Source of the DNA: a virus | Length of the DNA stretch: 22,702 bases | IMG/VR virus record: IMGVR_UViG_3300044630_002126 | Span: 1-22,702 of that record | Reading direction: 5' to 3' (one strand) | In this document: positions 5,515-21,357 of the stretch, in pieces | How the letters are laid out: every line of letters begins with the position of its first letter | Position numbering within the stretch: the stretch's first letter is position 1 | The notes under the pieces: model-generated | Seen by the model: only the letters and a program-made list of their open reading frames with translations | Databases searched by the model: none | What the model was told of the DNA's origin: nothing | Position numbers and translations under genes: made by a program

Positions 5515-6600
5515 TTAGGACAGGTCGAGCTTGCCGAAAGCGAGCGGGTTATGGATGCAAAGAGCAGCCACAGCCTCGATCAGTCTGGCAGGACCACCGC
5601 CGTAGTCAGGCAGCGAGGTGATTTCAGCCACGTTGCCACCATAACGGATTTCAACGAGGTCGAAGGGAATGATGTAACCAACGCTGAAGTTCTTGAGGAA
5701 CAGCGAGGGATGGATACGGAGCTGACCGAAGTCGCCGTCGAACACATCGATGGACGAGGTGTAGGTGCTGGCGGCAGCGTCACGATTGAACGCACGATTG
5801 GACTCGAGCGGGTTCGTGGCGGTGGATTCACGATTCGTGAAGACCAGGTTGGTGAACGCACGCTTCATCAGCGGACCAGCAAGGCAGTCATAGGTCTTAT
5901 ACTGGCCAGTCTGCTTGTAGATGGAGGTGAGGACGTTCTGGAGGGTGGTTTCGGTCAGGTCAGCGAGGTTGCCCGTGACGAGGGACGACGAGGTAGCGTC
6001 GTTGGCATCGAACGGAAGGCAGAACTCAGCAGGAGGGGTAGCGACAGTTTCAGCGGTATCTCTGTCGGCAGCCTTGACGAGCCACTTGTCAAGACCGCGG
6101 GTCTTGTAGGGGACGAGAGCACCACCAACGGTCTTTTCAGCCTGAGCCGAGTTGCTGGAGCACATCGTCTTTTCCATGTCACGCTTGAGCATGGTCATGG
6201 CCTTGGAGACGTTGTTCTGGAGTTCATCCTTCACGCCAGCGATGTTGGTAACGCTAGCCTGGGTGAGCTTCGAGACTCTCGTGGAGCGTCTGAAAATCTG
6301 GATGAAGTTGCCGAGTTCAGCACGATACTGCTTCGTGTTGCCCGAAGAGTCGGTGTTTCTGACGTAGTTATCGTAGTCAGCCTGAGAGACATCGGTGCCA
6401 TCGACGACACCATCAGTCTTGGGATCCGGAAGGGAGTCAACCTGCCAGCGGAAGAAGGTCTGCTGGGGCTGAGAACCCTTGCGAGCCATCGAGGTGAAGG
6501 GGGTATCCTTCGCATCGACGAGCGAGATGAGATTAGCGATTTCTTCTCTACGACCAAGCTTGTTGGCCTGGGAGAGATCGCGTTCGAACAGTTGAGACAT
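5515..6600 (-). CDS. Major capsid protein (SU10/DUF5309-like)
   Basis: The 361-residue product has the size and order expected of a podovirus major capsid protein, directly after a scaffold-like gene. The N-terminal part contains a segment typical of SU10-type capsid proteins: EIANLISLVDAKDTPFTSMARKG (split over residues 20-42), followed by TFFRWQVDSLPDP. The long spine-helix region (KDELQNNVSKAMTMLKRDMEKTM) and C-terminal beta strands (GQLRIHPSLF, VGYIIPFDLVEIRYGG) fit an HK97-like fold. The frame is GC-richer and more biased than its neighbours, as expected for a highly expressed gene. That bias also creates a long antisense frame. The start has no Shine-Dalgarno; a C-rich stretch precedes it. 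Family naming is from memory of DUF5309 proteins. Confidence 0.85.
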   Translation of the reverse strand: MSQLFERDLSQANKLGRREEIANLISLVDAKDTPFTSMARKGSQPQQTFFRWQVDSLPDPKTDGVVDGTDVSQADYDNYVRNTDSSGNTKQYRAELGNFIQIFRRSTRVSKLTQASVTNIAGVKDELQNNVSKAMTMLKRDMEKTMCSSNSAQAEKTVGGALVPYKTRGLDKWLVKAADRDTAETVATPPAEFCLPFDANDATSSSLVTGNLADLTETTLQNVLTSIYKQTGQYKTYDCLAGPLMKRAFTNLVFTNRESTATNPLESNRAFNRDAAASTYTSSIDVFDGDFGQLRIHPSLFLKNFSVGYIIPFDLVEIRYGGNVAEITSLPDYGGGPARLIEAVAALCIHNPLAFGKLDLS

Positions 6601-10128: not shown

Positions 10129-11751
10129 TCAATAAGAACCTCCGCCCATCGGTTTGAATGACTGGTCGTCTTGATGGATGGGGTCCATGACTGCAAGGTA
10201 TCTAAGGGAGTCGATAGGGTCTTTAGTCGCACCTTTTTCACCGTCCTGGCCAGTCCACTCACGCAGGGAGTAGATGAGGTTTTGACATTTATCGGAAATA
10301 AAGAGCTTTGGCTGATTGATCGCTGACAGAGGTTGCGAGCTGTCAAAAGATAGCCAGTCATTGATAATTGCAATGCCTTGGTCGATTTTAATGCCAGCAG
10401 AAGGCCTAAAGAACATAGGAGTCTCGCCCTCGCCAAGAAGTTCAATCAAAGAGGTCCCACCCTGATGCCCAATAGCCTGGGTTGCTCCAGCACGGGGGTC
10501 AATATACCTCTCAACTACCTCTTCTCCGTCTTCGAGTTCGAGAATAAGCTTTTTATACTCATCCAGACCCCTTCCTGCACCAGACCTTTGAGCAGGTCCT
10601 TCACGCCCATCAGGGTCTGAGTCAGGCAAGGCCCATTCCCCGTATTTTTCATCTGGGAATTCCCTGTAAATAAAGATTTTTCCGTCTGGAGTGACCCTTG
10701 CCCAAAGCATGAACCAATTTCTTGCTCCAGCGGGGTCGATTGCCATGTAGTTTGTGCCTTCTTCCGGGATTTCTTCGTCTTTGACGATGTGCGTGTCCGT
10801 GAATTGCGGGAATTGCGAGCCGACAAGTGCTTGCGCCCAGCCATACGCTCTGATTTTCTTTTCATAATCTGTTTTAGAAGACAATTCTTTCGCCATTCTC
10901 TCGAAAGACGAGTAAACATTGAACTTTGAGTGAAACCAGATGATGCCTTGGTTCTTGTTTCTGCCTTCTGCTGTGAAAGGCATCTTTCCCTTGGGGCATC
11001 CAGGCACATGAACCAAGTTTTGTGCGAGAAGTTCTGCTTTTTCTGTCTTCAAGAACCTGCAACCGCTTACATACTCCTTGACTACCTGGGAAAATCCGTT
11101 GATAGGAGTGAAAGTAATCAGCAATTTGCCTAGTCTGGTAAGGATTCGGTAACGCAACGTCTGCACCCAGTCGAGAGGAACGAGTTCGTCGCACCAAATA
11201 AAGTCTGGTTCACCACCTTCGATGACTACTTTATCCTGTGCGTAGTTCATAAAGATACATTGAGACCCGTTAGGGAAGACGAAACTGTTGTTTGAGAACC
11301 CGTTTTTCAGGGAATACTGGATATTTGTGACTCTACCCTTCTTCAGCGTCTTATATTCTGACGGCACATACTTCCAGATGACGTTTTGTTGCATCTGGAT
11401 TGACGACATCGAGGTAGTATGGATGCACCAAACGATGGAATTAGGCTTGTTTACGAGCGTATAGATGGCTCGCTTTGCTGCATACTCGGTCTTGCCAGCA
11501 CGATTGCCACCAAGAATAAGCAACTCGTCCTTTTCCTTAAGCAGATTGTCCGCTTCAGCCCAATGAAACGGCTCATATCCGTGTCTGTAAGGGTCGGACT
11601 TCTCCGCTTGAATCTTATCTTCTCTGAGTTGAATCAGTTTTGCAACATAATCAAGCCCCTTGGACTCAATCATCTGGCGAAGAGAATCTTCATCAGGCTT
11701 CTTGAGCACGGGATGCTCAGTCATCCTTTCAACAATTGAGGATGGGTTCAC
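10129..11751 (-). CDS. Terminase large subunit
   Basis: The DNA-packaging motor, 540 residues. The ATPase half shows Walker A at 81-88 (GGNRAGKT), Walker B at 183-189 (DFIWCDE, Asp-Glu catalytic pair) and a coupling motif with TPINGF at 215-220. The nuclease half has the RNase H-like acidic positions: AIDPAG (Asp339), ERYIDPRAG (Asp418) and KDPIDSLRY (Asp511 and Asp514). The start is GTG, overlapping the previous stop as GTGA. The next in-frame ATG is residue 10. It lies directly before the portal gene. No small-subunit gene was recognised nearby. Confidence 0.95.
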   Translation of the reverse strand: MNPSSIVERMTEHPVLKKPDEDSLRQMIESKGLDYVAKLIQLREDKIQAEKSDPYRHGYEPFHWAEADNLLKEKDELLILGGNRAGKTEYAAKRAIYTLVNKPNSIVWCIHTTSMSSIQMQQNVIWKYVPSEYKTLKKGRVTNIQYSLKNGFSNNSFVFPNGSQCIFMNYAQDKVVIEGGEPDFIWCDELVPLDWVQTLRYRILTRLGKLLITFTPINGFSQVVKEYVSGCRFLKTEKAELLAQNLVHVPGCPKGKMPFTAEGRNKNQGIIWFHSKFNVYSSFERMAKELSSKTDYEKKIRAYGWAQALVGSQFPQFTDTHIVKDEEIPEEGTNYMAIDPAGARNWFMLWARVTPDGKIFIYREFPDEKYGEWALPDSDPDGREGPAQRSGAGRGLDEYKKLILELEDGEEVVERYIDPRAGATQAIGHQGGTSLIELLGEGETPMFFRPSAGIKIDQGIAIINDWLSFDSSQPLSAINQPKLFISDKCQNLIYSLREWTGQDGEKGATKDPIDSLRYLAVMDPIHQDDQSFKPMGGGSY

Positions 11752-13001
11752 TTGAATAGGGCTGAGTTTAACTGAAATACAAGATCGGGCCTGGACTTAA
11801 CAGTATCACGAAGTTTTTCTTCTTGTTTGATGTAGCCTTTGTTTTTCTGTCTGCTATCTAGCTCTGCCTCGTCCCATCTTGCCTGACGGAAAGCAGGTTC
11901 AAGAGATTCTGTCGAGAACCTTTGACCATCAATTTCAGTAACTTCAGCATCAGTATAAGTATTACCTTGACTGTCGTAATGCTTGAAAGGTCCTACTCCG
12001 GCAATTGAAGCAATGTCCTTAACGTCAGCATACTGGCTTACAGGTTCAGCAAGGAGTCTTCCAGCAAGATTAAATCCTTTCACGTTTAGACCCTTTTCCG
12101 TAAGCGTATTAGATGCGTTTACATGAGCAGATTTATATTCTTTGCTTCCGATGGTTTGCTTTTCAATTGCACTAGCAATTTTTTCTCTTTCTGCTTTCAG
12201 TTCTGCTAGTTGCTGCTTTAGTTTTTCCCATTCAGGTTTCTGGAGCTCAGAAAGTTCTGGATTAAATTCTCCTGACAACTTGTTGGTAAGATCACGCAGT
12301 TCATAGAATCCAAGCATAGCTTCTGTGACTTTGATTTGTGAATCAATCATACGAGTAGGCTTCATCCCAGACTCATATTTGTCATAGATTCTTCTGACTG
12401 TTTTCCAATTAGAGTCAAAGTCCGCGTCTTCTTCTGCAAGTTTTAGCATCTTAGCATCTCTTGACTCAAGCCGTCTTGCGTTCTCGAGATTCTGCTTTTG
12501 ATTGCTTAACTCAACTCTTTGAGCGTCAACTTTTCCCTTCAAATCAGAGTAAGGTCCTTGAAGTTCTGCTTGCCTCCAATCTGGGGCATCGGAAAACTCC
12601 TGAAGAAGTGCCTGAAGCTTCTTATCTTCAAAACCAAAATAACCACTAAGCCACTTAACCTTCTGTTCCAATGATGCAGGCTGAAGGATGTCAGGTAGAG
12701 CCTTTCTTTTCCATGAATCGCCACCATCCAATGGCCTGTCAGCTAATGGATCACGATGGGTAAACTCGAATGATTCTTGTCCTCTCTTCTTAAGCCAAGC
12801 ATCTGCACGTTTTCTCCAATCAGACGCACTATCGCTTTCCTTGGGTGGTTCAAAATAACTTACATTTGGCCTGTCTTGGCCTTGTATGTAAAACTTTCTT
12901 GCCCTTTCAGTAGCCGCACCTTCTGCGTCACTAATGTTTACAGTTCCATAAGTGCCGTCGTCCCATCCCAAGTAATAAGGGTCGAAATATTGATTAGCCA
13001 T
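11748..13001 (-). CDS. Coiled-coil structural or packaging-associated protein, 417 residues
   Basis: The product starts MANQYFDPYYLGWDDGTYG, an aromatic and acidic head, and is then mainly charged helix. Likely coiled coils lie at residues about 150-190 and 255-282 (LKQQLAELKAEREKIASAIE). A C-terminal segment (residues 300-417) is rich in Lys and Arg. No ATPase, helix-turn-helix or membrane signature was seen. The gene is immediately upstream of the large terminase and fused to it by GTGA. A small-terminase function is possible from position but the length and domains are unlike known ones. An internal virion or ejection protein is an equal alternative. Confidence 0.7.
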   Translation of the reverse strand: MANQYFDPYYLGWDDGTYGTVNISDAEGAATERARKFYIQGQDRPNVSYFEPPKESDSASDWRKRADAWLKKRGQESFEFTHRDPLADRPLDGGDSWKRKALPDILQPASLEQKVKWLSGYFGFEDKKLQALLQEFSDAPDWRQAELQGPYSDLKGKVDAQRVELSNQKQNLENARRLESRDAKMLKLAEEDADFDSNWKTVRRIYDKYESGMKPTRMIDSQIKVTEAMLGFYELRDLTNKLSGEFNPELSELQKPEWEKLKQQLAELKAEREKIASAIEKQTIGSKEYKSAHVNASNTLTEKGLNVKGFNLAGRLLAEPVSQYADVKDIASIAGVGPFKHYDSQGNTYTDAEVTEIDGQRFSTESLEPAFRQARWDEAELDSRQKNKGYIKQEEKLRDTVKSRPDLVFQLNSALFK

Positions 13002-14765: not shown

Positions 14766-15071
14766 ATGACGCAGAAACACAAGTGGAACACGTCCTGGAA
14801 GTTCAGCGAAGAGACCAATGCTCTCGTTACTTCCGTCGAGTCTTCCTTCGATGTGTCTGATGAAGCCAAGCGAGTCCTCCGACTCCGCGTGGCCGCATCT
14901 GGTAAGACGCTTGCCTACATTGTCGCCTTGGAGTCTTCCTTGGAGGCTGGTGCTGGCTTCTTCCATCCTGCTCTTATCCTCAGCCCTCACAAGCTGGATA
15001 AGCGTGGAGACATTGTCGAGAAGCTCGAAGGACTTGGCATCGAGAACCCGTTTGATATCATCATCGGGTAA
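14766..15071 (+). CDS. Hypothetical protein, first rightward gene, 101 residues
   Basis: The ATG at 14766 is preceded by AGGAAGG about ten bases upstream, a good Shine-Dalgarno sequence unlike most leftward genes. The product begins MTQKHKWNTSWKFSEETNAL and contains a helical segment (VSDEAKRVLRLRVAASGKTLAYIVALESSLEAG, residues 30-62) and an acidic, compact end (GDIVEKLEGLGIENPFDIIIG). No membrane segment or known motif is seen. It sits directly after the candidate structured RNA and is closed by a strong terminator at 15092. A small regulatory or host-interaction protein is possible, but no family is recognised. Confidence 0.7.
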   Translation: MTQKHKWNTSWKFSEETNALVTSVESSFDVSDEAKRVLRLRVAASGKTLAYIVALESSLEAGAGFFHPALILSPHKLDKRGDIVEKLEGLGIENPFDIIIG

Positions 15072-15091
15072 TCGGTAACCAAGTGCTCGTC

Positions 15092-15127
15092 AGGGAGAGG
15101 AGTGTTGGAATGCTCCTCTCCCTTTTT
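15092..15127 (+). terminator. Strong rho-independent terminator
   Basis: A perfect 11-bp stem (AGGGAGAGGAG at 15092-15102 with CTCCTCTCCCT at 15113-15123), a 10-base loop and a T5 tract to 15127. It follows the stop of the 101-residue gene. Confidence 0.9.
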
Positions 15128-15143
15128 ACCTTCTCTAACTTTC

Positions 15144-15170
15144 GTGGCACTACGCCACAAACTACGCCAC
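15144..15170. repeat. Two ACTACGCCAC direct repeats with a small hairpin
   Basis: ACTACGCCAC occurs at 15149-15158 and 15161-15170. The first copy also closes a hairpin GTGGC-ACTAC-GCCAC (15144-15158). It lies between the terminator and the next gene, so a promoter-linked site is possible. Confidence 0.5.
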
Positions 15171-15202
15171 CTAGATTGGTGGTAACCCCAACAAAGAAGG
15201 CT

Positions 15203-15502
15203 ATGAAGCACAGCGAAACCCAAGTGCTCGATGCTTATCTGATGGCGTGCAAGTTCCGGGATGCTCAGTCCCAGAACCTGTATCGCCTCCGCAATCCGAG
15301 TGCGGCCACCCTACGCAAGCAGACCGACCTGTTCAAAGGTCTGGTCGATGTGTTCGGTGAGTCAGAAGGCAAGCGACGCTGGATGCAGTATCTGCACGCT
15401 CTGAGGAAGGACAAGAGCAAGGCCAAGGAACTCCACTCCTACTGGAAGTCCGAAGCCAAGCGTCTCAATAAGGTCCTGCGATTCCTCAAGGCCATCGGAT
15501 AA
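15203..15502 (+). CDS. Hypothetical basic helical protein, 99 residues
   Basis: I start at the ATG at 15203 (MKHSETQVLD). The longer frame would read through the terminator at 15092-15127. AAGAAGG precedes the ATG but with only two or so bases of spacing, so the start is not firmly set. The product is Lys/Arg-rich and predicted all-helical (KFRDAQSQNLYRLRNPSAA, then a helix RRWMQYLHALRKDKSKAKEL and KSEAKRLNKVLRFLKAIG). It could be a DNA-binding or host-takeover protein. No family is recognised. Confidence 0.65.
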   Translation: MKHSETQVLDAYLMACKFRDAQSQNLYRLRNPSAATLRKQTDLFKGLVDVFGESEGKRRWMQYLHALRKDKSKAKELHSYWKSEAKRLNKVLRFLKAIG

Positions 15503-15520
15503 TATCCATCGACGCTAGTC

Positions 15521-15542
15521 GTGGGGAGGGCAACCTCCCCAC
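15521..15542 (+). terminator. Stable 9-bp hairpin with GCAA tetraloop
   Basis: GTGGGGAGG (15521-15529) pairs perfectly with CCTCCCCAC (15534-15542) around a GCAA GNRA tetraloop, just after the preceding stop. There is no following U-tract, so it may be an RNA-stability or processing element rather than a terminator. Confidence 0.55.
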
Positions 15543-15567
15543 TTATTGGGGGTAGTTACTTTCCCAA

Positions 15568-15589
15568 GCCAACAGGGTCTGTTGTTGGC
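15568..15589 (+). other. Second hairpin before the next gene
   Basis: GCCAACA (15568-15574) pairs with TGTTGGC (15583-15589). An alternative inner pairing AACAG/CTGTT is also possible. It lies in the leader of the 69-residue gene, about 20 bases before its ribosome site. Confidence 0.45.
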
Positions 15590-15612
15590 AACCAAAGTAT
15601 AGAAAGGACGAT

Positions 15613-15822
15613 ATGAAAGAAATCAACTGCATGCACGATCGTGATATCTGCATCGAGGAGATTGTCAAGATGACCTATCTGATGGGCATCCCCGACGATC
15701 CTCGGTTCAAGGTTCTCACGCTCATCCAGTTGCCGTATCACGAGCTGGCCCGTCGCCGTCTTGATTGCTACGTTGAGCTCATCAACTACGCATACAAGAA
15801 GCTGGGTCACCTCTCGATCTAA
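15613..15822 (+). CDS. Small hypothetical protein, 69 residues
   Basis: The ATG at 15613 is preceded by GAAAGGA at suitable spacing. The product (MKEINCMHDRDICIEEIVKM onward) is helical with two early cysteines and a basic-aromatic helical end (YVELINYAYKKLGHLSI). There is no membrane segment. It is followed by a hairpin with arms GGGGTG and CACCCC. A small early-acting phage protein is the likely class, but no family is recognised. Confidence 0.65.
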   Translation: MKEINCMHDRDICIEEIVKMTYLMGIPDDPRFKVLTLIQLPYHELARRRLDCYVELINYAYKKLGHLSI

Positions 15823-15837
15823 CAGCAACTGACATAC

Positions 15838-15858
15838 AGGGGTGGTGACAGCACCCCT
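15838..15858 (+). terminator. Hairpin after the 69-residue gene
   Basis: A 7-bp stem AGGGGTG/CACCCCT (15838-15844 and 15852-15858) is followed by a pyrimidine tract that is not a pure T-run. It is a weak terminator or attenuator ahead of the next gene. Confidence 0.5.
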
Positions 15859-15871
15859 TCTCTTTCCCACC

Positions 15872-16060
15872 ATGAAAACATACAATCCAAAGACGCACAA
15901 GATTCTTCCTATCAGGCATCCGATGCAGACGAGTTGGCCTCACAGCCCTCTCTATCCTGTCTATCTTGGTTGGATAATAGTCTCTATCGATGAGCTTTAC
16001 GAAGGGCCGGTAGCAACGGCGGTCTTCACGCCGTTCGAACCAGAGGCTGTCGAGGAATAA
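15872..16060 (+). CDS. Small hypothetical protein, 62 residues
   Basis: The frame from ATG 15872 encodes MKTYNPKTHKILPIRHPMQT and then a hydrophobic-aromatic middle (PLYPVYLGWIIVSIDELYEG, residues about 27-46) and an acidic end. The ATG lacks a visible Shine-Dalgarno, and GTG codons further upstream in the hairpin are alternative starts. The compact spacing with its neighbours supports coding, but the evidence is only moderate. No family is recognised. Confidence 0.45.
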   Translation: MKTYNPKTHKILPIRHPMQTSWPHSPLYPVYLGWIIVSIDELYEGPVATAVFTPFEPEAVEE

Positions 16061-16104
16061 TTTCCCCAAGCACCCAGGGGATGTTGGGTGCAATCATCGC
16101 AACA

Positions 16105-16317
16105 ATGGAAGACAACGAACCCACAGCGTGCACACGTTGTAATGCCCCTACCATGTATCACATGATGTATTGGCTGAACGACGCACATGGCATCCCGCTG
16201 TGTAAGGTCTGTCCTCTCTGCGAAGCCAAGGCCAAGAAGAAGTATAACCCGGCAATCTTCCGGCACTATACTTCCTACGACCTGGACGCAGGTGAGCAGA
16301 TCGAGCCTGACTACTAA
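16105..16317 (+). CDS. Small putative zinc-binding protein, 70 residues
   Basis: The protein has CTRC near the start and CKVCPLC around residue 35: two cysteine pairs separated by about 27 residues, a zinc-ribbon-like layout (C-x2-C, then C-x2-C-x2-C). The N-terminal Met is uncertain. The ATG at 16105 (MEDNEPTACTRC) is used here, and an ATG at 16081 adds eight residues (MLGAIIAT) but overlaps a CACCCA/TGGGTG hairpin. A basic stretch (EAKAKKKYNP) follows the cysteines. Likely nucleic-acid or protein binding. The gene is closed by a strong terminator at 16339. Confidence 0.65.
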   Translation: MEDNEPTACTRCNAPTMYHMMYWLNDAHGIPLCKVCPLCEAKAKKKYNPAIFRHYTSYDLDAGEQIEPDY

Positions 16318-16338
16318 ACACAGTCAGGGCATAATTCA

Positions 16339-16369
16339 GAGGCTGGCCTACGGGCTGGCCTCTTTTTTT
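16339..16369 (+). terminator. Rho-independent terminator closing the rightward gene block
   Basis: A 10-bp stem (16339-16348 with 16353-16362, two wobble pairs) is capped by a TACG loop of the UNCG class and followed by T7 (16363-16369). It is the strongest + strand stop signal in the window and separates the rightward genes from the iteron region. Confidence 0.9.
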
Positions 16370-16854: not shown

Positions 16855-16882
16855 AAAAAAGGGAGACTATCGCTAGTCTCCC
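16855..16882 (-). terminator. Rho-independent terminator for the leftward amidoligase gene
   Basis: GGGAGACTA (16861-16869) pairs with TAGTCTCCC (16874-16882) around TCGC. On the minus strand it is followed by T6 from the A-run at 16855-16860. It lies about 40 bases beyond the stop of the amidoligase gene. Confidence 0.9.
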
Positions 16883-16918
16883 TGATATCTGACTTACTTA
16901 CTTTGAGTAAGTTGCTGA

Positions 16919-18481
16919 TTAACTGAGATTGTGATCGCTGGTATATTCGTGCCTAATGTTATCAATAGCACTTACGACATTTACCCACTTATCCCAGGTT
17001 GGGGTAGACTCATTGATTGTGGGAAGTTGGAAAGCACCACAATGCGAGTTGTTCGCAAGGTGCTTTTCCCACAAAGGTTTGAATTTACCGATTCGCTCGA
17101 TCACATAAACCTTGAGTTCCAGCGGACATTCGGACTCCATAAAGTCCTCAAAGGTGTCAATCTTGGTAGAGTTATTGACACACCAGAACATAAGGCTTGC
17201 CCACATCTTCAACTTCCAGAAGTTTAGGGTAGGCATACCAACACGCACTTCCACAGTATTGTGTTCACTATGGCAATGGGTATTAATAGCAGAATACCTA
17301 GAAGCCTGAGAGTCAGCCCATACCGAACAATAGCGGTTTGTGGCTCTACGAGGACTGATGGTTCTATGCAACCACGACTTAAACGCATCTCTGACCCTTC
17401 CAGCGATCCTGTAATAAGTAGCAGAAGGGCGGTTTCGCATATCAATATGAACGTGGCAACCACAGGATTTGTTGATCCTACCACCTGCATCAGTTAGCAG
17501 TTTCAGGGTATTCTGGACTTTATCCCAATTCTCCTGATTGTTGATATTGAGGAAAGCCTTATACTCCTGATAACGAGCAACTGCCTCATCTTGGCAATCC
17601 GTAGTAATGCTACCATCCGTGGTAAACGAATTCCACCTAGAAGTGGGGTAATCATCACTATCCCAAGTTGCCAAAGGTGCGTTATTCTCGGAAACGAATT
17701 CTAACTCGATCCCGATACAATCACCTTCTGGGAACTTACGGAAAGCCACAGTCTTGTGGAAGTTGTCAAGATGCCTAGACCAGTGCATTGGGGCAGTATG
17801 GTAGATCCTGTCCATTGCTGCTTCCCACTTTTCTTGGATAGTCTCGTTTCTGACGAAACTACGAGCATAGTGGTTTCTACCAGTCTGCAGGTTCTCGCAA
17901 CCATCCATAAAGTAGCGGAATGCGTTTCCGTGCAGTTTCATGAATTGCGAGATATTGACTTTCACCTGATCCCAGTCGCTTTCGAAAACCCAGGGATTGG
18001 TGATATAGGTGCTATGCTGGATGTTGGTAGGAATGCGATCTTTGCACAACAGGTGAATCCAGCCTTCCACATTATTGCGGAAATACCCAGATTGATGGGT
18101 TCCCTTGATATGGGAATTATAGACTTTCGTCACCCAATCAAAAAGGCTGGACTTGTGGTTTCGGTGGATCTTGCATTCCAGCAGTTGTCCGATAGCCTCA
18201 GAACGCTGTTTAATGCCGTTTGCTGAGATCGAAGAACAATGGTTATGCGAATAGTTGGTGGAAGACGAGAGTCCCAGAACCACACAATCCGGATGTTTAC
18301 GGACAATGGGGTTCAGGCTGTTCCACCAATTCACACGACTATCGAGAGTCATGTAATGGCTGAAATCACCGCTATGCTTGGTTAGCATAGAAATGACTTT
18401 CTTCTGTTTCTTGGCGATCGGCTTCCGAATGGAAAGCAGAAAACCAAGTTTGTCGGGGGTTTCCTTATTATCAGGCTTCAT
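16919..18481 (-). CDS. Putative amidoligase (ATP-dependent, GCS/glutamine-synthetase-like)
   Basis: The 520-residue product carries motifs of the putative amidoligase family (Pfam Amidoligase_2) in its second half: IGIELEFV (257-263, Glu metal/ATP ligands), TDGSI (288-292), INKSCGCHVHID (336-347), RYSAIN (395-400) and NTVEVRVG (408-415). This family is predicted to join a carboxylate to an amine using ATP, by analogy with gamma-glutamylcysteine synthetase and glutamine synthetase. The first 250 residues are basic and match no domain I know. It lies 51 bases after a class II glutamine amidotransferase gene with a similar leader, which suggests paired action, the amidotransferase supplying ammonia. 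Its own leader is A-rich and lacks a Shine-Dalgarno. Substrate is unknown. Confidence 0.8.
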   Translation of the reverse strand: MKPDNKETPDKLGFLLSIRKPIAKKQKKVISMLTKHSGDFSHYMTLDSRVNWWNSLNPIVRKHPDCVVLGLSSSTNYSHNHCSSISANGIKQRSEAIGQLLECKIHRNHKSSLFDWVTKVYNSHIKGTHQSGYFRNNVEGWIHLLCKDRIPTNIQHSTYITNPWVFESDWDQVKVNISQFMKLHGNAFRYFMDGCENLQTGRNHYARSFVRNETIQEKWEAAMDRIYHTAPMHWSRHLDNFHKTVAFRKFPEGDCIGIELEFVSENNAPLATWDSDDYPTSRWNSFTTDGSITTDCQDEAVARYQEYKAFLNINNQENWDKVQNTLKLLTDAGGRINKSCGCHVHIDMRNRPSATYYRIAGRVRDAFKSWLHRTISPRRATNRYCSVWADSQASRYSAINTHCHSEHNTVEVRVGMPTLNFWKLKMWASLMFWCVNNSTKIDTFEDFMESECPLELKVYVIERIGKFKPLWEKHLANNSHCGAFQLPTINESTPTWDKWVNVVSAIDNIRHEYTSDHNLS

Positions 18482-18496
18482 GTTTTTTTGGTATTT

Positions 18497-18512
18497 GGTA
18501 TTTTTTGGGTTT
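18497..18512 (-). promoter_or_regulatory. A-rich 16-nt leader element (copy 1)
   Basis: On the minus strand AAACCCAAAAAATACC precedes the amidoligase start by about 16 bases. An identical 16-mer is at 19605-19620 before the glutamine amidotransferase gene. Neither gene has a Shine-Dalgarno, so this may be an A-rich translation enhancer or a regulator site. Confidence 0.5.
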
Positions 18513-18532
18513 CGCCTTTTGGGGCAAATTGG

Positions 18533-19594
18533 TTAGTCGTTATGTTTCCAGGGTTTGTTGTTAGCCCTGTATTTACGCATTTGTTCCTTTCGGAGTTCTT
18601 TGATATCCTCGGATTCCGGCTTTTGGGCAGGAGTGGTAGAAGGAGAGGAAGTGGGAGTATTGGTAGTTCCGGTATATCCGTCTACTTGGTCTTCCCAATA
18701 AGAACCGTATCCATAAGAACCGCTAGTAGTGCCATAACCAGCAACACCAGCAGAACCGAGAGATCGGCTAATTGCACCATATCCAATTCTACGGGAATAT
18801 GACTCAAACTTGGAAAACTCATTACTCTCGATCTCACCATTTGCGAGGAACGTATGTTTCACATAAGGTGCGAGAAGCATAGGAGTAGTGATAGTGGCAG
18901 TTTTGAGTCCATTGAAGGTAAGCATCAAATTAGCCAATTCGGTGCAATGGGTAGAGTCTGTGCAAATGATATATTGCCCAAGTTGCTTGATATACACAAG
19001 ATACAAAGGAGCACGATCATCACGTAAACAGAACATATCACCATTTGGGTTAATACCCACAACTGCGGCATATCCAGAAAGTCCCTCTTTAAAGGAATGT
19101 TCACCTTCTGCATAAAGGAAGCAATTGAGGATATGCTCAGAATCGCAAGTAGTATGGGTCGGGTATTTCTCACCTTCCCAGTCAACTACGCCATTATGGG
19201 CAATCGTATATTCGCCCTTTTCGCTGGTTCCATTGAAAGGGTGAGTATTGGTAATCGACTTTCCACAGGTTGCAGTCCTTCCGTGGGCAATATAAGACCT
19301 GAGGACTTTGCCATTTTCTGGCTTTGCACCTTTCTGGTCATAATCGATCCCGTAGGTTAACTGAGTCCTGATACTTGCGGGAAGTGTGTCCCGAGAGTCT
19401 TTCAGCACTCCGATACCTTTGCAGGTTTCCGGGTTTTGGTATCTTTCCATGAACACACCTTTAGTGGTTTGCATGGCATAACCGAAACCATCCTTTTGTG
19501 AAGAACCCAGGAGTTCCGCAGATTTGCGGACTACCTGACTTGCCTGCTTTAAGGATTTGCAGGCAATTACGTTCATTGCTATTAGTTTACACAT
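18533..19594 (-). CDS. Class II glutamine amidotransferase with a long disordered tail
   Basis: The 353-residue product begins MCKLIAMNV, so after Met removal Cys2 would be the N-terminal nucleophile of an Ntn-hydrolase glutaminase. Further class II signatures are DGFGYA (35-40), the AHGRTAT stretch (103-109, Arg for the glutamine carboxylate), NTHPF (116-120) and AHNGVV (132-137). DSEHIL (151-156) fits the later conserved acidic position. This chemistry frees ammonia from glutamine. The C-terminal 80 or so residues (about 270-353) are low-complexity Gly/Ser/Tyr and Thr/Pro, ending in a charged KELRKEQMRKYRA helix. No second catalytic domain is present, so ammonia must be used by a partner, most likely the adjacent amidoligase. 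Start is fixed by the nucleophile Cys. Confidence 0.88.
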   Translation of the reverse strand: MCKLIAMNVIACKSLKQASQVVRKSAELLGSSQKDGFGYAMQTTKGVFMERYQNPETCKGIGVLKDSRDTLPASIRTQLTYGIDYDQKGAKPENGKVLRSYIAHGRTATCGKSITNTHPFNGTSEKGEYTIAHNGVVDWEGEKYPTHTTCDSEHILNCFLYAEGEHSFKEGLSGYAAVVGINPNGDMFCLRDDRAPLYLVYIKQLGQYIICTDSTHCTELANLMLTFNGLKTATITTPMLLAPYVKHTFLANGEIESNEFSKFESYSRRIGYGAISRSLGSAGVAGYGTTSGSYGYGSYWEDQVDGYTGTTNTPTSSPSTTPAQKPESEDIKELRKEQMRKYRANNKPWKHND

Positions 19595-19604
19595 CGTGTT
19601 TTTT

Positions 19605-19620
19605 GGTATTTTTTGGGTTT
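19605..19620 (-). promoter_or_regulatory. A-rich 16-nt leader element (copy 2)
   Basis: This is the same 16-mer as copy 1 (AAACCCAAAAAATACC on the minus strand), about ten bases upstream of the amidotransferase start. Its recurrence before both enzyme genes suggests shared control or shared initiation mode. Confidence 0.5.
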
Positions 19621-19683: not shown

Positions 19684-19711
19684 ATAATACATATATCTGA
19701 TCACCTGTCAA
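19684..19711 (-). promoter_or_regulatory. Sigma70-like promoter for the amidotransferase-amidoligase pair
   Basis: On the minus strand TTGACA (19706-19711) is followed after 16 bases by TATTAT (19684-19689). A TATAAG overlaps further downstream with 19-base spacing. The consensus -35 and near-consensus -10 point to host RNA polymerase. The implied leader before the ATG at 19594 is roughly 80 bases. Confidence 0.65.
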
Positions 19712-19978: not shown

Positions 19979-20170
19979 TTGGGAATAGTCCAGGCCGAAT
20001 TAGTTATAGTTTCTTAAATCTGGCCAGAAAACTTGACCCGTCAAACTTGCAGATTTTTCGTTCCGCATCTTTCATTGATTTTTGATCGCAGTTTTTTGCC
20101 AACGCCAGACCTCGCTTTTCCGGCTTATTTTCAGTTTTTCGCGGCTTTCGGCCAGGATGATTTTGCCCCA

Positions 20171-20224
20171 TATACCATTAAATGGTTTTGAAATGAGATT
20201 TGATTTGACCTCAATATACCATTA
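20171..20224. repeat. Two TATACCATTA motifs
   Basis: TATACCATTA is found at 20171-20180 and 20215-20224, 44 bases apart. It differs by one base from the TCTACCATTA array at 16483-16714. The pair lies just beyond the stop of the 80-residue leftward gene. Confidence 0.6.
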
Positions 20225-20235
20225 CTCGAATTTAA

Positions 20236-20478
20236 TTACGACTTTTTGTTAAAACTCGCTTCAAACTTTTCCATTTGAAGGTCTAGGATTAGTTTTGAGT
20301 AAGCCAAGATAAGGCCCTCTCTTGCCATATAATCCTTTGTTTTATCATATTCGTCTACCAGAGAAAGGACAGGCATCATCTTCTCGATGGTGTCTACCTT
20401 TACTCCGAGCATGACGGCACAACCAGATATGGAAGAGTTCTTTCTCTGGCCTTTGTTAATCTTATCGTTTGGTAACAT
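20236..20478 (-). CDS. Hypothetical protein, 80 residues
   Basis: A small protein (MLPNDKINKGQRKNSSISGC onward) with a basic start and a helical body (TIEKMMPVLSLVDEYDKTK, then REGLILAYSKLILDL). It overlaps the previous gene's end by 17 bases in another frame, which supports coupled translation. There is no membrane segment. It is last in the chain before the repeat-rich gap. Family not recognised. Confidence 0.6.
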   Translation of the reverse strand: MLPNDKINKGQRKNSSISGCAVMLGVKVDTIEKMMPVLSLVDEYDKTKDYMAREGLILAYSKLILDLQMEKFEASFNKKS

Positions 20479-20842
20479 GGAAGAAAGGAAGAGCGTCGAT
20501 TAATACCTCACAGTTAGCGGAAGTATTGGTAGTGGTAAATGAGGAAACATACGTTCCGTCGGCGTTCTCATCTCCTGGGAATTTTGCACCAAGATGCTTT
20601 CTCGCCCACTTCCTAGCATTGAACATGATTTCGTCATGGTCTAGGGTTCTGAGTTCTCCATTACACTCTTCCGTGTCAAACTTGGTAACAGAGATACAAG
20701 CCCAAGGTTCTCGGTGCATGGAGCCATCGGAATACCAAGCCTTATAGAACGAGATGTAAGGCTCGTTCATATTGTATAGGCTATCAATCCTCTTAGAATA
20801 GTTTTCCAAGAATGTCTGTTTCATAAGCGTCAGCGTATCCAT
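20462..20842 (-). CDS. Hypothetical protein, 126 residues
   Basis: The product begins MDTLTLMKQTFLENYSKRID and contains aromatic strands (PYISFYKAWYSDGSMHREPW, residues about 28-47), a basic helix (FNARKWARKHLGAKFPG) and a Thr/Ser-rich stretch near the end. No known motif or membrane segment. The start ATG lies two bases beyond the stop of the gene before it, in the compact leftward early cluster. The leader has no Shine-Dalgarno. Confidence 0.65.
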   Translation of the reverse strand: MDTLTLMKQTFLENYSKRIDSLYNMNEPYISFYKAWYSDGSMHREPWACISVTKFDTEECNGELRTLDHDEIMFNARKWARKHLGAKFPGDENADGTYVSSFTTTNTSANCEVLIDALPFFHVTKR

Positions 20843-20844
20843 TG

Positions 20845-21357
20845 TTATTTCTTGTGGGTTTGGTAGGTTACTTGTTGTCCGTTGAGGTATACTGCGTCGA
20901 ACGAGTCGAACAGGTCAAGTTCGTTCTGGCAGGTAATCTCAAAAACGAGAAGCGGGAATTGAGAGGATACTTCCTTCAGCCAAGGAAGAGGGTGTCCTTC
21001 CAAGGTTCTGAATTCGTATCTAAGGACTTCATTGGGAGTCCCCCTGTCAACGTAATCCAAGGTTACATCGACGGCATCATACAGGGTTCCCCAGCGGTTC
21101 TTGCAGAACTCGAAAGAAGAGGAATAACCTGTCTTTGCAATTCTCTTGGCTCTGGCATCATCAGAGTCGTCCTCAATCGTGTCGATTAGGATATCTGGGA
21201 TTTGGACATGGAAGTAGAAAGACAGGGGAGAGCCATCATCTGGGTCTTCCACGTCAGACTCAAACAGGTCGAGTTCGTGTAGTGCGTCGGACTCATTGTC
21301 TTGTGGTGCAACCTTGAGGGTGCAATAAGTCCAGTCATTGATGTTTTCTTGGGTCAT
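20845..21357 (-). CDS. Api92-like / DUF1281-like protein, 170 residues
   Basis: The ATG at 21357 (MTQENINDWTYCTLKVAP) is chosen over an upstream start that would overlap the neighbouring gene. It carries the pattern of Api92-like proteins: a WTYCTLKV strand near the start, CKNRWGTLYDAVDV in the middle (compare the family's WGTKWD core), and an ending YEFRTLEGHPLPWLKEVSSQFP with a following LLVFEITCQNE strand. These proteins come from phages, plasmids and pathogenicity islands and have a ferredoxin-like fold of unknown biochemical role. Assigned from memory of that pattern, not a search. Confidence 0.6.
   Translation of the reverse strand: MTQENINDWTYCTLKVAPQDNESDALHELDLFESDVEDPDDGSPLSFYFHVQIPDILIDTIEDDSDDARAKRIAKTGYSSSFEFCKNRWGTLYDAVDVTLDYVDRGTPNEVLRYEFRTLEGHPLPWLKEVSSQFPLLVFEITCQNELDLFDSFDAVYLNGQQVTYQTHKK

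Follow-up and report, generated by a model that had tools for sequence, protein, structure and literature searches.

A compact two-gene phage locus pairing a stand-alone class II glutamine amidotransferase with an amidoligase: a candidate two-component amide-forming enzyme

The pairing of an amidoligase with a class II glutamine amidotransferase (GATase) is already known in phages, as LUZ24, phiEco32, and Arthrobacter phages carry both families. In phiEco32 (phi32_84/_83) and LUZ24 (gp18/gp19), an Amidoligase_2 protein adjoins a class II GATase, and the catalytic motifs are similar to those of the locus described here. The amidoligase gene comes first in these phages, the GATases are 510 and 676 aa in length, and neighboring genes encode a COOH-NH2 ligase, an ATP-grasp protein, and a gamma-glutamyl cyclotransferase (GGCT). 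Cassettes of this type are also found in tf, PaP3, UFV-P2, and PSA-HP1. The larger cassette has been described as a peptidoglycan modification cassette common to many podoviruses (PMC5498523), and the idea of a role in superinfection is repeated elsewhere, with Iyer 2009 as its source (PMC10580990). Arthrobacter phages Salgado (98/99) and Ottawa (65/66) carry adjacent annotated amidoligase and GATase genes, again with the amidoligase first, although their ligase is shorter and lacks the N-terminal region discussed below; Salgado has a GGCT gene upstream. In the group of OM43 phage MEP401, the two families are present in the same phages as auxiliary metabolic genes (PMC10580990), and it is in this co-occurrence that the likeness to the present locus consists. 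A further parallel is provided by EgtA and EgtC of ergothioneine synthesis, in which a gamma-glutamyl ligase works with a class II GATase-fold enzyme (PMC9103826); EgtC is a hydrolase. The papers searched yielded no experimental test of what the phage pair does.

The window analyzed here, a stretch of 22,702 nucleotides of viral DNA (IMGVR_UViG_3300044630_002126), is a tailed-phage fragment, as judged from its terminase large subunit (10129-11751), SU10-type major capsid protein (5515-6600, E=8.2e-43), and virion proteins. Among annotated phages, the terminase of phage C75C1 is the top phage match to that of the window (31%). A sister contig of 44,358 bases (IMGVR_UViG_3300044675_002639, hereafter G001) is 97.5% identical across the region of interest. 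Both genes of the pair lie on the minus strand, at the positions and in the order originally predicted, with the GATase gene (18533-19594) followed by a 51-nt gap and the amidoligase gene (16919-18481). The same two families adjoin one another in phi32_84/83, the phiEco32-like precedent that the original prediction had named, and profiles built from the present survey match the reference pairs of both phiEco32 and LUZ24. What the window adds is a compact version of the pair with two genes, the inverted gene order, and a helical region at the N terminus of the ligase that is specific to its clade. In contrast to phiEco32 and LUZ24, the GATase comes first and is 353 aa in length, the N-terminal region of the ligase is longer, and the two genes form a unit with its own promoter and terminator. 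No COOH-NH2 ligase, ATP-grasp protein, or GGCT was found among the flanking ORFs of the window or the sister-phage ORFs scanned, which cover part of that contig.

The first gene encodes a stand-alone class II GATase of the Ntn glutaminase type, an assignment that draws on Pfam matches, the AlphaFold2 fold, and residue conservation. Its match to PF13522 (GATase_6; E=1.8e-9, 38.1 bits) exceeds the cutoff of 27, as its match to GATase_4 (25.8 bits) exceeds that of 23, while a single-sequence search of the PDB with this protein gave no match. In the AlphaFold2 model, residues 1-260 form a single Ntn domain with pLDDT mostly 90-98, and the closest PDB structures include PurF (1ecb, E 5.3e-10) and the glutaminase domain of GlmS (1xff, E 5.6e-9). 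Cys2 and the motifs AHGRTAT (residues 103-109) and AHNGVV (132-137) are present, along with the residues that define the class, namely the glutamine-binding arginine R106, the oxyanion Asn-Gly pair N134/G135, and the aspartate that contacts the amino group, D151. Cys2, Arg106, Thr109, Asn134, Gly135, and Asp151 are each conserved in 69 of 69 pairs and correspond to the glutamine-binding residues of GlmS and PurF; the family profile was aligned with GlmS. This profile gives strong matches to GlmS (1.4e-17) and PurF (1e-13) but only a distant one to the hydrolase EgtC (2.5e-4), so that the sequence is not nearer to EgtC than to the ammonia-donating GATases. Comparison with the sister phage yields a dN/dS of 0.06, consistent with purifying selection.

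Beyond residue 262, the GATase consists of a mostly disordered tail rich in G, Y, and S, which contains an RSLG motif and ends in a short basic C-terminal helix. Since only this tail and helix follow the Ntn domain, the protein lacks an acceptor domain, as had been predicted. Of 44 non-redundant GATases, 12 carry an R[SA]LG motif, picked after the data had been seen, that follows the Ntn domain at a nearly constant spacing (shuffle mean 0.84, maximum 5); at this frequency it was rejected as a universal tail motif. In the close clade, the basic C-terminal segment ends in KPWK or PYK; the tail of the window protein is encoded at 18536-18806. The tail motif is a possible docking element.

The second gene encodes an Amidoligase_2 protein of 520 aa, a carboxylate-amine ligase of the glutamine synthetase/gamma-glutamylcysteine synthetase (GS/GCS) superfamily according to Pfam, PHROG, and AlphaFold2. 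The profile search placed it in this family as anticipated, with a PF12224 match (E=1.9e-7, 31.7 bits, cutoff 22) that spans residues 316-390 only and a PHROG match to amidoligase (4e-9). The catalytic core extends from about residue 245 to 470 and contains the motifs IGIELEFV (256-263), SCGCHVHID (339-347), and NTVEVRVG (408-415), preceded by the clade-specific helical region (residues 1-230); the core is modeled with confidence, while about residues 147-210 are not. All four superfamily motifs, ExE, DGS, HxH, and ExR, were found. Glu259, Glu261, Asp289, His343, Arg379, Glu411, and Arg413 are each conserved in 69 of 69 pairs, His345 in 68 of 69, and S291 in 64 of 69. The top PDB matches of the model were YbdK, gamma-glutamylmethylamide synthetase (GMAS), and glutamine synthetase (GS) (probability 0.85-1.0), with the gamma-glutamylcysteine ligases GCL and GshA lower in the list; the list is coherent, although the E values are weak (2.5e-3 to 2e-2) and the global TM scores low. 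Comparison with viral models recovered the annotated amidoligases of Salgado, tf, CW02, and others, with E values down to 1e-13, and the best tblastn matches among annotated phages were Arthrobacter phages Salgado and Ottawa, at 24% identity. A profile built from 55 amidoligases found no match among PDB sequences, and cytochrome matches obtained in a single-sequence PDB search were rejected as spurious. The dN/dS relative to the sister phage was 0.18, again consistent with purifying selection.

With a near-consensus promoter upstream and a strong terminator downstream, the two genes have the appearance of a single, independently transcribed unit. The single promoter of the original prediction corresponds to a sigma-70-like site, TTGACA-16-TATTAT, at 19684-19711 on the minus strand, 89 nt upstream of the GATase start; it is a consensus match only, with 11 of 12 positions. 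Promoter-like sites in the region are not enriched over shuffled sequence (10 versus 12.9), so that the call rests on score and position. Directly 3′ of the amidoligase gene, an intrinsic terminator at 16860-16883 (minus strand) consists of a 10-bp stem, a 4-nt loop, and a T run, and a hairpin with a T run likewise follows the pair in the related locus L094. Other strong terminator-like hairpins lie at 15092-15123 and 16338-16363, near a series of small plus-strand ORFs (14766-16317) that face the pair. The original prediction also noted a 16-mer shared by the two leaders. This element, AAACCCAAAAAATACC, is indeed present as exact copies at 19605-19620 in the GATase leader and 18497-18512 in the amidoligase leader, both on the minus strand and both A/C-rich; the 25-nt leader of the GATase is 92% A+C. 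Allowing up to three mismatches, three hits were found versus 0.33 expected, and none of 100 shuffles reached three. The leaders of relatives are A/C-rich but differ in wording, and AAACCCAAAAAATACC is kept only in the near-identical sister G001 among all relatives checked. It was consequently rejected as a conserved regulatory element and is read as part of an unstructured leader rather than a specific signal.

The two genes proved to be kept together in a survey of related phages, as the original prediction required. For viral contigs, loci were found by amidoligase alignment and GATases were then sought by profile. A GATase accompanied the amidoligase in 64 of 80 loci, always on the same strand and within 300 bp in 55; the order was amidoligase-GATase in 59 of the paired loci and GATase-amidoligase in five. 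Among 15 viral loci seeded with the GATase, 11 contain an amidoligase, two of them more than 1 kb away, and in the other four the contig begins inside the GATase gene. In bacterial genome contigs, for which a smaller alignment served as query, 26 of 80 amidoligase loci had a GATase. The closest relatives of the window show both gene orders (GATase first in L014, L017, and L094, as in the window; reversed in L015 and L016), which implies that the pair survived rearrangement. Paired distances of the two proteins were correlated across 69 pairs (r=0.42; the largest value in 2000 permutations was 0.15), with the qualification that the loci are non-independent and that shared inheritance alone yields some correlation. 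The remaining 16 of the 80 viral loci had no GATase nearby; 14 of their records were searched with PF13522, which found none, although many of the records are fragments and the profile can overlook GATases that are short and divergent, as in phage C75C1. Instead, a GGCT gene is present in several of the 16 loci. The pairing is real and strongly conserved, and the predicted catalytic residues are essentially invariant across the 69 pairs.

Other features of the surrounding loci were observed. Small uncharacterized proteins of about 75-120 aa, belonging to one or two families with a weak link between them, flank the amidoligase or GATase in considerably more than 12 phage loci, usually directly adjacent to it (e.g., L011 5548-5787, L050 6600-6830, L062 6648-6875, L073 7587-7934, and L083 6582-6845). 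They are a possible substrate or partner, and they were not found in the clade of the window. There, no third recognizable gene lies beside the pair, and the neighbors shared within the clade have no Pfam match. A PADLOC search for defense systems gave no match. Some phage regions contain several amidoligase ORFs, with five in L063 (IMGVR_UViG_3300035698_019371), at least two in L034, and two in L044. In phage C75C1 (OQ984151), a GATase-GGCT fusion and an amidoligase are encoded at 20149-21045 and 21898-22830; the 298-aa fusion protein, annotated only as gamma-glutamyl cyclotransferase, resembles a short class II GATase (MCLII..., HFRFATVG) joined to GGACT. Next to the terminase gene of G001, an extra 336-aa ORF (31699-32709) has a C-terminal part similar to that of a 417-aa ORF; the window contains the latter (11748-13001) but not the 336-aa copy.

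The GATase most likely supplies ammonia to the amidoligase, a role that the original prediction had proposed and that is plausible on sequence grounds. Two features of the GATase favor ammonia donation, namely its retained residues for binding free glutamine and a profile that lies much nearer to GlmS and PurF than to EgtC. In such a mechanism, the glutaminase would shed its initiator Met, and Cys2 would free ammonia from glutamine by attacking its side-chain amide. Binding ATP and metal through its ExE, DGS, HxH, and ExR motifs, the amidoligase would phosphorylate a carboxylate, and attack by ammonia (or an amine) would then form the amide. We infer that ammonia passes between the two proteins, which are probably in contact, possibly through the flexible GATase tail and the N-terminal helical region of the ligase. 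Because the genes beside the pair encode no obvious acceptor, a host peptide or a compound of the gamma-glutamyl/peptidoglycan type probably fills this role. Taken as a whole, the model of one operon encoding a two-component amide-forming enzyme, with GATase-derived ammonia, proteins in contact, and a host-type acceptor, has in our estimate about an even chance of being correct. In the best-known class II GATases that donate ammonia, GATase and synthetase form one fused protein; their separation in the window argues against ammonia donation, as do the 16 of 80 amidoligase loci with no GATase nearby.

Those solitary loci would also suit a view of the genes as chance neighbors or decayed genes with no joint function, which is extremely improbable given the same-strand linkage in 64 of 80 loci, pairing through changes of order, invariant catalytic residues, and purifying selection. 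A more serious rival is an EgtA/EgtC-like pair, in which the amidoligase would join an amine to glutamate at its gamma-carboxylate, with the GATase cleaving gamma-glutamyl amides and donating no ammonia. The GATase residues are not decisive here, because the conserved Arg and Asp fit glutamine or a gamma-glutamyl group alike. The fold matches of the ligase (YbdK and gamma-glutamylmethylamide synthetase, with GCL and GshA lower) mostly use the glutamate gamma-carboxylate, GGCT genes near related amidoligases hint at gamma-glutamyl chemistry, and phage C75C1 provides the GATase-GGCT fusion. Ergothioneine synthesis supplies the precedent (PMC9103826), and phage GATase and GGCT have been classed as degradative (PMC5498523). 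Set against these points, GlmS and PurF match the phage GATase profile much better than EgtC does, and no GGCT was seen in either the ORFs of the window or the scanned ORFs of the sister phage; we consider this chemistry rather unlikely. Somewhat more doubtful still is a minimal make-and-break system, in which the ligase would add a gamma-glutamyl group to a host amine, peptide, or wall component, the GATase-fold partner would remove or edit it, and the tail would dock the two enzymes.

Two further proposals concern the substrate. Phages hypermodify bases, and glutamine amidotransferases act in some 7-deazaguanine pathways, a general precedent for forming an amide on a modified base. The part of the sister-phage ORFs that was scanned contained RusA, ERF, N6/N4 methylase, and similar proteins but no base-hypermodification enzyme, and DNA or nucleotide modification is regarded as very unlikely. 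The published proposal for the larger cassette of phiEco32, LUZ24, PSA-HP1, and others (PMC5498523, PMC10580990) suggests instead that the pair may amidate or otherwise alter stem-peptide carboxylates, shifting the action of competing phages or of the phage's own lysin, as in peptidoglycan modification or superinfection exclusion. Amidation of peptidoglycan glutamate by MurT/GatD is a chemical precedent (PMC3267633), although these enzymes belong to other protein families, and near the pair the window has neither the ATP-grasp protein nor the second ligase that belong to that cassette. This proposal is a substrate claim only, for which the papers searched contain no experiment; compatible with either ammonia-donor or gamma-glutamyl chemistry, it is tentatively held to be possible.

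The same two enzymes adjoin one another in widely differing phages and in some bacterial contigs, and their recurrence across such different phages implies a common chemical job during infection. The two-gene unit of the window offers a small, tractable version of this biochemistry, consisting of two proteins in one operon, and solving it would help to explain the larger cassette of phiEco32 and LUZ24.
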